Of a stretch of 64,000 nucleotides of DNA, positions 28,801 to 34,800 are shown piece after piece. The notes beneath the pieces were generated by a model, which worked only from the letters and a program-made list of their open reading frames with translations, was not told the DNA's origin and ran no database searches. The stretch's first letter is position 1; every line of letters starts with the position of its first letter. A program made the translations under genes and the position numbers. This DNA comes from Protonemura montana (Eukaryota > Arthropoda > Insecta > Plecoptera > Nemouridae). The stretch spans positions 5,984,570-6,048,569 of the forward strand of contig OX387602.1 in the NCBI GenBank assembly GCA_947568835.1. Direction: 5' to 3'.

Positions 28801-31800
28801 TTTATAATTGCGGATGGTCAGGGTTTTGTGGTGTTAGGGTGCAGGCTATACTTTTTACATGGTCATGCTGAAAATTGACGAGACTGAAAGGAAAGCTCGC
28901 TTCAAAATTAGGTCTCATAGCTGAGAGCTGAAAATCAAATGTCTTTTTTTACAAACAATTACTTTGTGAATAAAGGTAAAGTTGAAATGCATTGAGTGCT
29001 AAGTCACTTAATGTGAGAGTGAAGCTTTAAGGTGGTTTTCCACTTGGCCAATTTTTAAGTGAATGCCACAGCAGATGGCTTTGGGGTGCGTTTGGGAAAG
29101 CTGAGTGGAATATTTACCCTTGCCGCCAGCGTCACCGCCAGCCGGGGCCGACTGTCCGGGATGGTCGAGGAAGATCTCGATCAACAGTTTGTTGTTTCCC
29201 TTCTTGAACTGGTCGACAACGGTGTCGTTCAAGGGATCCTTGTTCTTCTCCAGCCATCCGGTGATGTTGTAAGACACCTGTAGACACATTGGCACACTGT
29301 TGAACTCAAGGTACGAGGGCTTTTCGTGGAAAAGCCCTTTTGTGCACAAAAGAGAGCAGTTGTTTTAAGTGATTTTTTGTTTCAGCATGACAATGACAAC
29401 TGTCAAGAGAAATAAACACTGTGTTGAGGAAGCATCGAGAACAACTCTGGGTACGTTAAAAACCTTATTTTTTTCTCTGCGGTAAAGAATGTGGACTGGT
29501 ATTGAAGATTTGATTTTACTGAGTCGATATCACTGGGTAATATCTGTACTTACGCAGCCGGCATAATGTCCCAGAGCGAAGTGGGCAGCGACCTGGCCGG
29601 GCTTTGGGGGCTTGGGCTTCTGGAAGTTGGGCGATTTGCCCAAGTGGTTGTTCATCAGCTTCTCCTCAAAGGTCCTGTCCGTGGCCTTGGGGAACATAGA
29701 CTCTTCCTCAAGGATGGATAGGATACCCATGGGCTGGAGGAAAGAGAACCGACGATTAGTATTGATACAGGTAATAAGGCGGTGCGTTAATGTAATCTCC
29801 TGGTAATTTATGTAATATTACTTCAAATTTATGTCACAACCAATGTAAGATTGAATAAATATCAAGATATGGATATTTTTATGTGATAATAACTATTTAT
29901 AGTACCAGTTAAGCTAAAAATAAAACTGAAATAATTACTTGTTCGCAAGGAACTTCAAGCTAAATCTAAATACTTTATAATGTGCTTGCAACTCTACTTG
30001 TACTTGGTTTTATTATCTACGAGCAGTCTAAGTACTTTATATTTATTAATTTCAACAAATTAATTTGAATCGTTGCTACTTTGTAAGTAAAAATGTGCAT
30101 GTTTTAGGTACACATACCATATCCAGCTATGACAAGATAATTATTACTAAATTACATCTACATAGTTACCTTAGAGCAGGATTCGACTTTCAGTAAGCTA
30201 AAAATAATTAAAATTAACTAAATTTCTATTATATTTCTATAAACTAGTGTCTACTCCTTACCTTAGAGGCACGAGCCGTACTTACTTGATGCCAATTTCT
30301 TCAAAATGGTGAGGGGGCCGATTTGAAAGTGCGGAAAACATACTGTGGTGGTGCGAGGATGAATGGATGTCTGCTCAGGCTGCAGCGAACTAATTTCATA
30401 CCAATTACATCAATTACCCACTAAGACACTACTTTACGGCATTTATGTACATTGCCCAACGAAACCTTTCTTGAATAGCTCAATATTTCACAGCGCGGTC
30501 AGCATTGGTGATAATAGCATTTAACAATGCCAAACTCTACAGCTGAATTCTACTGAATACAAAAATATAGCGCGGTATATGCAATTGCAGTTACATGGGG
30601 GTAATTTACAATGACGAAACAAACAATTTCAAAGGAAATTTAAAAGAAAGGAAAAAACCGCGAGATTATAATAAAATAATATAGTGCATTGCCAAAAAGA
30701 AAGGCATTTGTAAGCGATTTGAAAGTGATACCTTTTCGATAAGGTCAATCGTCGGTTGGAGGTCCATAGCGAAATTAATGAACACCCACGTGATCCCTTG
30801 GCGCTCGTACTCCTCTTGCTCGAGTACGAACATATGGTGGTTGAAAAACTGCTGCAGCTTTTCGTTGGTGTAGTTGACGCAAAGCTGGTTAAACCCGTTC
30901 GACTGCAGCCGGGGCCGACGATGGCGTTCGGGGGTTGGCAGGGTGAGAAGAGCACATGAGAACAACACACATTTGGCGACAGAAAGACAACAAGACATAG
31001 ACAGTGTGTAGTTGGTGTTGCCGGTTAGATATCTGTGTAATCACCCCACCCTGTGTTCCCGATAGCGAAGCGGAGACGAAAAGTGGTAGACAAAGCGAGA
31101 CGCAGAGAAATTGCAATTTGTGTCTGAAAATATAGTTATTAGAGTGTCACTATTATTTATGTTATAAAGTCAATTCACGGGTTACCTTTGTTTGATACTG
31201 ACGGATTCGTTCCGATTATACAATATCAGGTGTTAATATTTTTGTTTTGGTTATTTATAAAACAATCACAAACGAAATCACCAAAGAAAGAAAATTGAAA
31301 ACACATTGCAGAAGCATTTTCTCGTGGTAAGCGAGAGGACTTGAGGTCTTAGCTCAGTCTACCTTCTCAATGAGTTCAATGCAAGCCTGAAGGTCCATGC
31401 CAAAATCAATGAAGGTCCATTGAATGCCTTCACGTTGGTATTCCTCTTGCTCAAGCACGAACATGTGGTGATTGAAGAACTGTTGCAGCTTCTCGTTGGT
31501 GAAGTTTATGCACAGTTGCTCGAACCCATTGAACTGCAGGTTCGCGGGTAGGCACAAGCAACGGAGTTAACACAACATTTTCCTCGGATAGAGAGGCATG
31601 CAAAGAGCGAGGCACCATTGGCACCATTAGAGGAGCGTGGTGTGTGTAAACATTCCTCGGATCGGGGTAATCGCCCGCAGTTCTGCGCGGGGTGTGATTA
31701 GGAACACAAAGAGACACAGCTGAAAGATTAGCCAAAATATGCACACACACGTTTGAAAAAGTTTGAAGACATGTAAGAGCCACATAAAATAACATATTGC

Positions 31801-34800
31801 GAAGAAGTTTGAAGCCAGTTAGACTGATTGTTTCAAACCTGGTTTCCTTTGTTCAGTATGTTATTCTCATATAACCGTAACATCTGTATCGATGCTGTGG
31901 ACATACATATCATTACGCCCAGTCTTGCATAACTGCATTTCGTAATACCTTCTCAATCAGTTCAATGCAAGCATTCAAGTCCATGCCAAAATCGATGAAG
32001 GTCCAGACAATGCCTTCACGTTTGTACTCCTCTTGCTCAAGCACGAACATGTGATGATTGAAGAACTGTTGCAGCTTCTCGTTGGTGAAGTTGATGCAAA
32101 GTTGCTCGAAACCGTTGAACTGCATGCCGGGTAGGGTTTTGGTAGATAATACGAATTAGAATAGCTGCACGTATGTTTTTTTCATAAATCATATTATCAT
32201 GGGAGACTAGGGAAAAATAAACACCTTGCTGGTCTAGGGCTACTGCATTCAAATCTATTGGAGACAAAAGTGATTAGAAGTGCAGGACTGTAGATTCTCC
32301 GAGGGTCATTCCTGGATCACGCTGCGCTGTTTGTAGAACAGTTTTTCACTAGCAATAACGTTAGTGTTAGAGCGTGCGTTGCGGTTAGTTTTTCTCTCGT
32401 TTATCAGTTTTTCCCTTGCGTGTGATATAAGCGGTGTGTAAAGCGAGTCAATAACTTTGTTTACCTGCTGAGTCCACCTTGATAACTTATTATTATCTTG
32501 ATATGTTATTTGAGAAAAGATGAAGGTTCGCGTCGGCCAACTACCTTTTCAATGAGCTCAATACAGGCTAGCAAATCCATTCCGAAATCGATGAAGGCCC
32601 AGACGATTCCCTCTTTTTTGTACTCTTCTTGTTCCAAAACGAACATATGGTGATTGAAGAATTGTTGGAGTTTCTCGTTGGTGAAGTTAATACAGAGTTG
32701 CTCAAAGCCGTTTTCCTAAATTAAACCAACTGAAAACTGAGCATCCGAATGCACGAAACTTTGTCGGAACAAAAACTTTATTCCGATCACCGGGGTCCCG
32801 ATCTGAGCGCCTAGACGTGTTTACACGAAAGGTATGAAGGGCAATTAAACGGAAAATTGGGCGTCCATTTTCCCAATCATAAGAGGTGTTATTGCGATCA
32901 AACGATTGGTAGGTATGTGATCTTTGGTCTTGTTGTGGGTTTTAAAAGTGATCATACCTGCACGGAACCGTGTGCGTTTCAAGAGACATCGGTTCTCCCT
33001 TCAACGTTAGCCCAGCGATAGCTTTTAGCGAGCGACGAACTTCATTTCGATGAAGCATGTGAGCGGTGAAATTGCAAACGCGTTTGAGACAACCCCTGTC
33101 CATTACGCGAAGCGTTTCCTTCATAGCAATGAAGGTTTTTTGTAAGCTTATGTATCTTCACAATGCCTTCTCGTTGGCACGTTCAAGAAGTGTACTTATC
33201 TAAGACTAAGCCGTACTAACTACTTATTATATGCTTAAGCTTAATAATAGGTCGATTTCCTTTCCTTGGAACCGAGTGCGCTACCTTTTCAATGAGCTCA
33301 ATGCAAGCCAGCAAGTCCATGCCAAAATCAATGAAAGCCCAGACGATGCCCTCTTTCTTGTATTCCTCTTGTTCCAAAACGAACATGTGATGATTGAAGA
33401 ATTGTTGGAGTCTCTCGTTTGTGAAATTGATACACAACTGCTCAAAGCCGTTTTCCTGAATCGATAACTCTTTGGTAAGATGATCGAATGCAATGAAAAT
33501 GGTTTAGACAGACTAAAACAATTGGTCACGGGTCTCGCATGGCAAATCTACAGTGATAAAACATTTTTCTTTTGAAAAATTTGTTGGACAGAAGACTGGT
33601 TGTCCATGTTTCCAGTCATCGAGAGGTTAGTGCAAGTCAAAAGGGCGGTATGTCTACTATATGTGATCATATAATTTTGTGACACCATACCTGTGGATCG
33701 TAGTCAATACCATTGAAGTTTGATCCATGCCCGAATGGGTAGCGACACTCGGTGATGAGTACCAGATAGAAATCGAGTACTGATCGCCGATAAGCCATCT
33801 CATTCGTGCCATGTTAACCATTAATCTTAACGCGTAACGATTCCTCCATATCAATGAAGTTTACCCGTACAGTACTCGAAGTTTGCCTCTAATAATGCCG
33901 TTTCTGGAATTGTATAGGGCGCCCTTGTGTACCAAATCTATTATATTCGCTCCAATATATCGAAGTTTGATAATATAATTAGGCCTTAATTCTAAAGCCG
34001 TTGACTCATTTAGCTACCTTCTCAATGAGCTCAATGCAAGCCAACAAGTCCATGCCAAAATCAATGAAGGCCCACACAATGCCCTCTTTCTTGTACTCTT
34101 CTTGTTCTAGCACGAACATGTGGTGATTGAAGAATTGCTGCAACCTCTCGTTGGTGAAGTTGATGCACAGCTGCTCAAAGCCGTTGTACTATAAAACATA
34201 ATGCCAGTCTCGATTGTGGTCTTTGAGCATTCGAATCACCGGTAAGCATGATCAATCATTGTTCCAGTGATTGATTGTTATCATTAAATTAAGCAAAGCG
34301 TAAGATTTTTGTTCACCATCGGAAAACAAAATTCAAAACGTTGGAATTTTTCTAAAAATATTGACAACGAATTGAAGAAAACCGTGAAGCGTGAAAAAGG
34401 TTAGAAACTTTGTTTTTGGTTATTGCAAAGCTTTTGAAGCGGTTTGTCTAGCTTTAATGCTAGTTGAAAGCAAAGCTGGTTAGCAAAAAAAAGCTGTTAT
34501 CGTTAAACAGAAAATTTGGTTGGAAATTCAAAAATATTTTATCATCTGCGTCAGAAAATCCCGTCACCGACGTCAAACCTATAAACTGTGGATGAAATGA
34601 TTAAAGTAAAGAGAATCTAAAAACTCACATTTTTATAGGGAGAGATACATTGTGAGCTAAGAATGAACAGGTGCAATGAAGAGACTCTAGATTTACTTGA
34701 TCTCAAATGGATTCACTAAAAAGTTGGAATTTGAAATATGAATTGGGTAATCTGATCAGTCAATTAAAAATTGATTCAACTGAAGGTTTACTGAAATTTG

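Follow-up and report, generated by a model that had tools for sequence, protein, structure and literature searches.

The 64,000-nucleotide stretch of Protonemura montana DNA analyzed here (GCA_947568835.1, contig OX387602.1, positions 5,984,570 to 6,048,569; hereafter, the window) contains a muscle myosin heavy chain (Mhc) gene in which six consecutive exons, R1 to R6, encode the relay helix and loop. We read this array as mutually exclusive exon (MXE) cluster-7 of insect Mhc, i.e. as six mutually exclusive relay exons in the single muscle Mhc gene of an insect-like arthropod, with a probability of about 0.92. The array is real, well formed and ordinary in kind, representing a known class of exon cluster at the upper limit of the counts generally published. 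A larger number of exons does not necessarily bring a larger number of muscle speeds: exon count does not equal isoform variety, as half of the array encodes nearly one protein.

Structure of the relay exon array

All six exons lie on the minus strand and are exactly 171 nt (57 residues) long, with phase 0 on both sides, AG and GT borders and no stop codons, and one 12-residue stretch is kept in 6/6. Six consecutive 171-base, same-phase exons with good AG/GT borders, no stop and this common stretch were precisely what the first-pass annotation of the window had described, and the description held for every exon. Residue 1 is Y, E, E, F, F and S in R1 to R6, respectively, and all six exons finish in LIEK. 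The relay exons and the two constitutive exons that flank them are as follows.

34864-35016, minus strand: constitutive exon upstream of the relay cluster, AYSIGAM...DIAGFEIFD, donor gtaagt (5' border approximate)
34018-34188, minus strand: relay exon R1, starts YNGF, L49 A50
33285-33455, minus strand: relay exon R2, starts ENGF; the sole change from R1 is residue 1, Y to E
32545-32715, minus strand: relay exon R3, starts ENGF; like R2 but with Lys at residue 15
31949-32119, minus strand: relay exon R4, starts FNGF, N49 A50
31363-31533, minus strand: relay exon R5, starts FNGF, Q49 A50
30732-30902, minus strand: relay exon R6, starts SNGF, Q49 P50 (published variant d)
29554-29733, minus strand: constitutive exon downstream of the relay cluster, acceptor cctccag, starts PMGILSILE, ends HYAGC

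The flanking borders agree with those annotated previously, the upstream exon ending at 34864 (GFEIFD, then gtaagt) and the downstream exon starting at 29733 (cctccag, then PMGILSILE). The introns measure 675 nt before R1, 562, 569, 425, 415 and 460 nt between successive relay exons, and 998 nt after R6.

With a hidden Markov model (HMM) built from the same six exons that it scores, R1 to R6 all reached E = 5.1 × 10−49 or better, the best-scoring site elsewhere in the window having E = 1.8. No seventh relay copy was found by this model in the window, a stretch in the intron before R1 (34417-34481) scoring only E = 12. A dead seventh relay exon was also sought by local alignment of the seven introns with the six exons and was rejected as unconvincing: the intron before R1 was matched by 2/200 shuffles, introns R2-R3 and R3-R4 by 10/200 each, and the other four by 66-160/200. 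Separately, intron R2-R3 contains two short stretches resembling exon sequence (33127-33147 and 33160-33180) that turned up as members of a repeat.

An apparently single muscle myosin locus

The window sits on contig C1 of a 258 Mb genome in 34 contigs. A genome-wide query with the R1 protein returned at least 16 matches at E ≤ 1 × 10−5, of which six were R1 to R6 themselves (73-100% identity); the best match outside the array had 70% identity and lies on contig C13, and the remaining nine had 47-68%. We take the C13 match to be non-muscle myosin II, judging by the fly sequence. The exon just upstream of the array gave at least three matches in the genome, one of 100%, which is this gene, and two of 47-49%. 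The genome appears to have a single muscle Mhc gene, and no muscle relay exons other than R1 to R6 were found.

The array has the attributes of insect cluster-7, i.e. tandem homologous relay exons of equal length and phase (6/6) in a gene that also has clusters 1, 5, 10, 11 and 8, with 2, 4, 3, 2 and 2 copies, respectively. Together, this cluster context and the genome-wide matches bear out the earlier assignment of the exons to the relay of one Mhc gene.

Divergence, selection and duplication history

At the protein level, R1 and R2 differ at 1/57 residues (Y1E), R2 and R3 at 1/57 (R15K), and R1 and R3 at 2/57, whereas R4, R5 and R6 show 5, 7 and 16 changes in 57 residues relative to R1, respectively; R6 differs from the other five at 13-16/57. 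Because R1, R2 and R3 are separated by only 1-2/57 residues, the array as a whole provides about four distinct relays. The best sequence match of R1 in PDB is fly muscle Mhc (5w1a), and those of R5 are beta-cardiac myosin. We take R1 to be 9a-like in the fly nomenclature, its identity to the fly 9a-type sequence being 93%.

DNA identity among the relay exons ranges from 67 to 91%, and the closest pair is R4-R5 (90.6%, dS 0.43). Within the R1-R3 group, 62-83% of synonymous sites have changed (18/28.8 for R1-R2, 24/28.8 for R1-R3 and 19/28.7 for R2-R3), and non-synonymous changes make up 3/21, 4/28 and 2/21 of the differences, respectively, a deficit that is highly significant in each pair (binomial P = 9 × 10−12, 3 × 10−15 and 3 × 10−13 for R1-R2, R1-R3 and R2-R3). 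Purifying selection holds the R1-R3 proteins nearly identical, and the same non-synonymous shares uphold the earlier impression that the exons are functional.

These data also bear on the notion that the array is an assembly artefact or a set of pseudo-exons, whether by false duplication or by the death of several copies. The first-pass annotation had named a duplicated assembly artefact as an outcome that would undo its claim, and this was not borne out: DNA identity is 67-91%, the introns are mostly unrelated, and the frames and splice borders are all intact under strong purifying selection. A recent false duplication of the array is refuted, and the broader notion is extremely improbable.

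Another alternative holds that the six relays all differ in function, each serving a different muscle speed. The divergence of R4, R5 and R6 from R1 is in its favour, as is the influence of the fly relay variants on power and kinetics (PMC11944230), although relay swaps in fly myosin are described there as having modest or context-dependent effects. However, R1-R3 are nearly one protein, and none of the Lethocerus clones contained exon 14b, a probable relay exon (PMC5660136), such that we consider this alternative unlikely. The earlier proposal of an 'enlarged set of muscle types or speeds' is unsupported as written, given the near-identity of R1-R3.

In a tree of the relay exons for which non-muscle myosin II served as the outgroup, the topology was (((R1,(R2,R3)98)100,R4)75,R5)92, with R6 outside. 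On the preferred reading, i.e. a genuine cluster-7, the array would have grown by tandem duplication, with R6 splitting first and R1-R2-R3 representing a 5' expansion.

Residue 1 of the relay

Both R2 and R3 carry Glu at residue 1. Among ten displayed PDB myosins, Tyr occupies this position in three and Phe in seven, in a small sample that consists of the ten listed alignments covering residue 1 (from 145 and 43 matched) and in which five of the seven Phe entries are beta-cardiac myosin constructs. The Tyr/Glu alternative at residue 1 may be a real functional difference, and the change from Tyr to Glu in R2 and R3 may introduce a charge switch where the relay helix begins.

Splicing signals and conserved intron islands

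A G at donor position +5 was present in 0/6 relay exons, compared to 12/13 constitutive exons examined in the motor and neck regions and 9/13 other alternative exons. The significance of the difference between relay and constitutive donors (Fisher P = 2.6 × 10−4) is overstated, as the six relay donors belong to related copies. The missing +5 G is consistent with regulated relay donors, and the AAG exon ends of the relay exons may compensate for it.

Of the 21 pairs of introns compared, only introns R1-R2 and R2-R3 proved homologous (score 62 vs. a shuffled mean of 25.8, with 0/100 shuffles as good); the other 20 pairs were unremarkable, with at best 5/100 shuffles as good. These two introns are 46% identical overall, the likeness being concentrated in two islands and the rest near unalignable.

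33838-33858, minus strand: island 1 (conserved), intron R1-R2 copy; counterpart in intron R2-R3 at 33113-33133
33591-33619, minus strand: island 2 (conserved), intron R1-R2 copy; counterpart in intron R2-R3 at 32852-32880

Neither island pattern was found elsewhere in the window at up to 3 mismatches; the patterns were derived from their own copies, and self-matches carry no weight. In hand-picked stretches, island 1 forms a hairpin in both copies (8/200 and 0/200 shuffles as stable), whereas island 2 forms the expected hairpin in one copy (4/200) and a different fold in the other (13/200). Covariation in the island 2 hairpin had been suspected by eye and was dropped, as the copy in intron R2-R3 folds otherwise.

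These observations raise a further possibility, namely, that R1-R3 serve as parallel splicing addresses for a single relay protein, with different muscles or stages picking different copies via distinct intronic signals, so that growth of the array reflects regulation and not protein variety. The relay proteins of R1-R3 are 1-2/57 residues apart despite 62-83% changed synonymous sites, the two islands are kept within near-unalignable surroundings, the island 1 hairpin is present in both copies, and there is a precedent in the alternative exons of N-cadherin, reported to yield functionally redundant proteins (PMC2655722). However, the islands are known from two copies in one genome, the stretches that were folded had been chosen by hand, the island 2 copy of intron R2-R3 lacks the expected hairpin, and Tyr/Glu at residue 1 may matter for function. 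On balance, we regard this account as tentative. Somewhat more doubtful still is its extended form, in which R1-R3 would be kept for their splicing addresses and not for their protein, as copies of essentially one relay long held identical by purifying selection, with the islands flanking R2, such that several independent muscle programmes would switch on one motor variant, to which the Glu of R2 and R3 may add a charge switch. With half of it encoding nearly one protein, the array is a compact test case of whether alternative exons are kept for regulation or for protein differences.

Predicted use of the relay exons

Under the cluster-7 reading, every transcript would include a single relay exon out of the six between the exon ending at 34864 and the exon starting at 29733, and the resulting motor would carry one 57-residue relay helix and loop. 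The choice would probably be made by muscle-specific splicing factors acting via the weak donors together with intronic elements. Choosing among R4, R5, R6 and the R1-R3 group would alter the relay and, conceivably, motor kinetics, whereas a choice within R1-R3 would matter mainly for the splicing signals used, plus Tyr or Glu at residue 1.

Several observations weigh against this reading, in particular against the mutual exclusivity of R1 to R6 that we infer from homology. Double inclusion stays in frame (171 nt, phase 0) and would therefore not be eliminated by nonsense-mediated decay alone. Simple steric exclusion would need shorter introns than the 415-569 nt that separate the exons. A shared docking site was not found in the introns before R1 and after R6 (7/20 and 12/18 shuffles as good) by a docking-selector scan that, as a single-genome test, has little power, and a scan for inverted repeats yielded short imperfect pairs only. 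R1 is as near in DNA to R4 (84.8%) as to R3 (83.6%), and the duplication history may therefore include gene conversion. Finally, the genome match counts given above, being lower bounds, call for caution regarding the single locus.

Other alternative exons and neighboring sequences

The Mhc gene holds at least six alternative-exon clusters, with 2/4/6/2/3/2 copies in clusters 1, 5, 7, 8, 10 and 11, which arithmetically allows 288 combinations for the motor and 576 including the hinge.

41827-41970 and 41600-41743, minus strand: exon-3-like alternative exons, cluster 1 (n = 2)
38607-38710, 38232-38335, 37617-37720 and 36452-36555, minus strand: exon-7-like alternative exons, cluster 5 (n = 4; starts from reading acceptors)
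28211-28266 and 27948-28003, minus strand: loop-2 alternative exons, cluster 8 (n = 2)
26332-26449 (GC donor), 25774-25894 (GC) and 25197-25314 (GT), minus strand: converter alternative exons, cluster 10 (n = 3)
19679-19757 and 19407-19485, minus strand: hinge alternative exons, cluster 11 (n = 2)

From relay to converter there are five separate exon positions, namely, PMG, SYN, loop-2 (two variants), EQL and VIDS. The converter donors read gcaagg, gcatgt and gtagaa, i.e. GC, GC and, in the last variant, GT. A second P-loop exon was not seen in a self-comparison of the gene, which also overlooked the short loop-2 pair.

Downstream of the Mhc gene, on the plus strand (6607-11859), the window contains what we presume to be annexin-like repeats, judging by two 13-residue motifs. 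Elsewhere in the genome, contig C34 holds mitochondrial genes that can be read with the invertebrate code, including a COX1 (3504-4841) that we take to be insect-like. A COX1 copy on contig C4 (5760925-5762262) scores equally and reflects either recent transfer of mitochondrial DNA to the nucleus or an assembly error. Another, shorter COX1 copy lies nearby (C4:5776811-5777755).

Comparison with known Mhc relay clusters

In gene position and in its 57-residue module, the array corresponds to cluster-7 of insect Mhc (Odronitz and Kollmar 2008; Kollmar and Hatje 2014). According to PMC3912159, relay variants in Neoptera generally number 3-6, with seven in Dendroctonus and nine in Homalodisca; six in Nasonia are given in PMC2257972. 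An array of six lies inside the general neopteran range, such that the present case adds one more cleanly assembled relay array at its upper end. The published signatures are Q49 P50 for variant d and Q49 followed by Q or N for variant c (PMC2257972). R6 carries the variant-d pair, whereas variant c fits no exon exactly, R4 having N49 A50 and R5 Q49 A50. Unlike cluster-7 as described in the available texts of these sources, the array contains a near-identical triplet, R1-R3, two members of which (R2 and R3) begin with Glu.

The GC, GC, GT series of converter donors matches a published hallmark of insect Mhc, GC donors after the converter variants and GT after the last (PMC2257972, where one sentence words it reversed). 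A second P-loop exon is described as a trait of Palaeoptera (PMC3912159). In Diptera, the five exons from relay to converter are fused to one (PMC3912159), whereas here they occupy five separate positions; thus, dipteran and hymenopteran patterns are excluded by the published rule. A mosquito origin was accordingly dismissed; a search for Anophelin was uninformative on this point, as it gave no match in 14 control genomes either. Exon 9 of Drosophila Mhc has three variants, as the first-pass annotation had stated and as PMC11944230 confirms (9a, 9b and 9c; residues 469-525, i.e. 57 residues), so that the length is the same and the number is three there vs. six here. A further parallel in overall layout is the myosin gene of Lethocerus indicus, with the same six alternative clusters as here, 1, 5, 7, 8, 10 and 11 (PMC5660136). 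If exon 14 of that gene is the relay exon, as the order of the list suggests, its variants, which in the available text are named only to 14c, apparently comprise three relay exons, compared to six in the present array.

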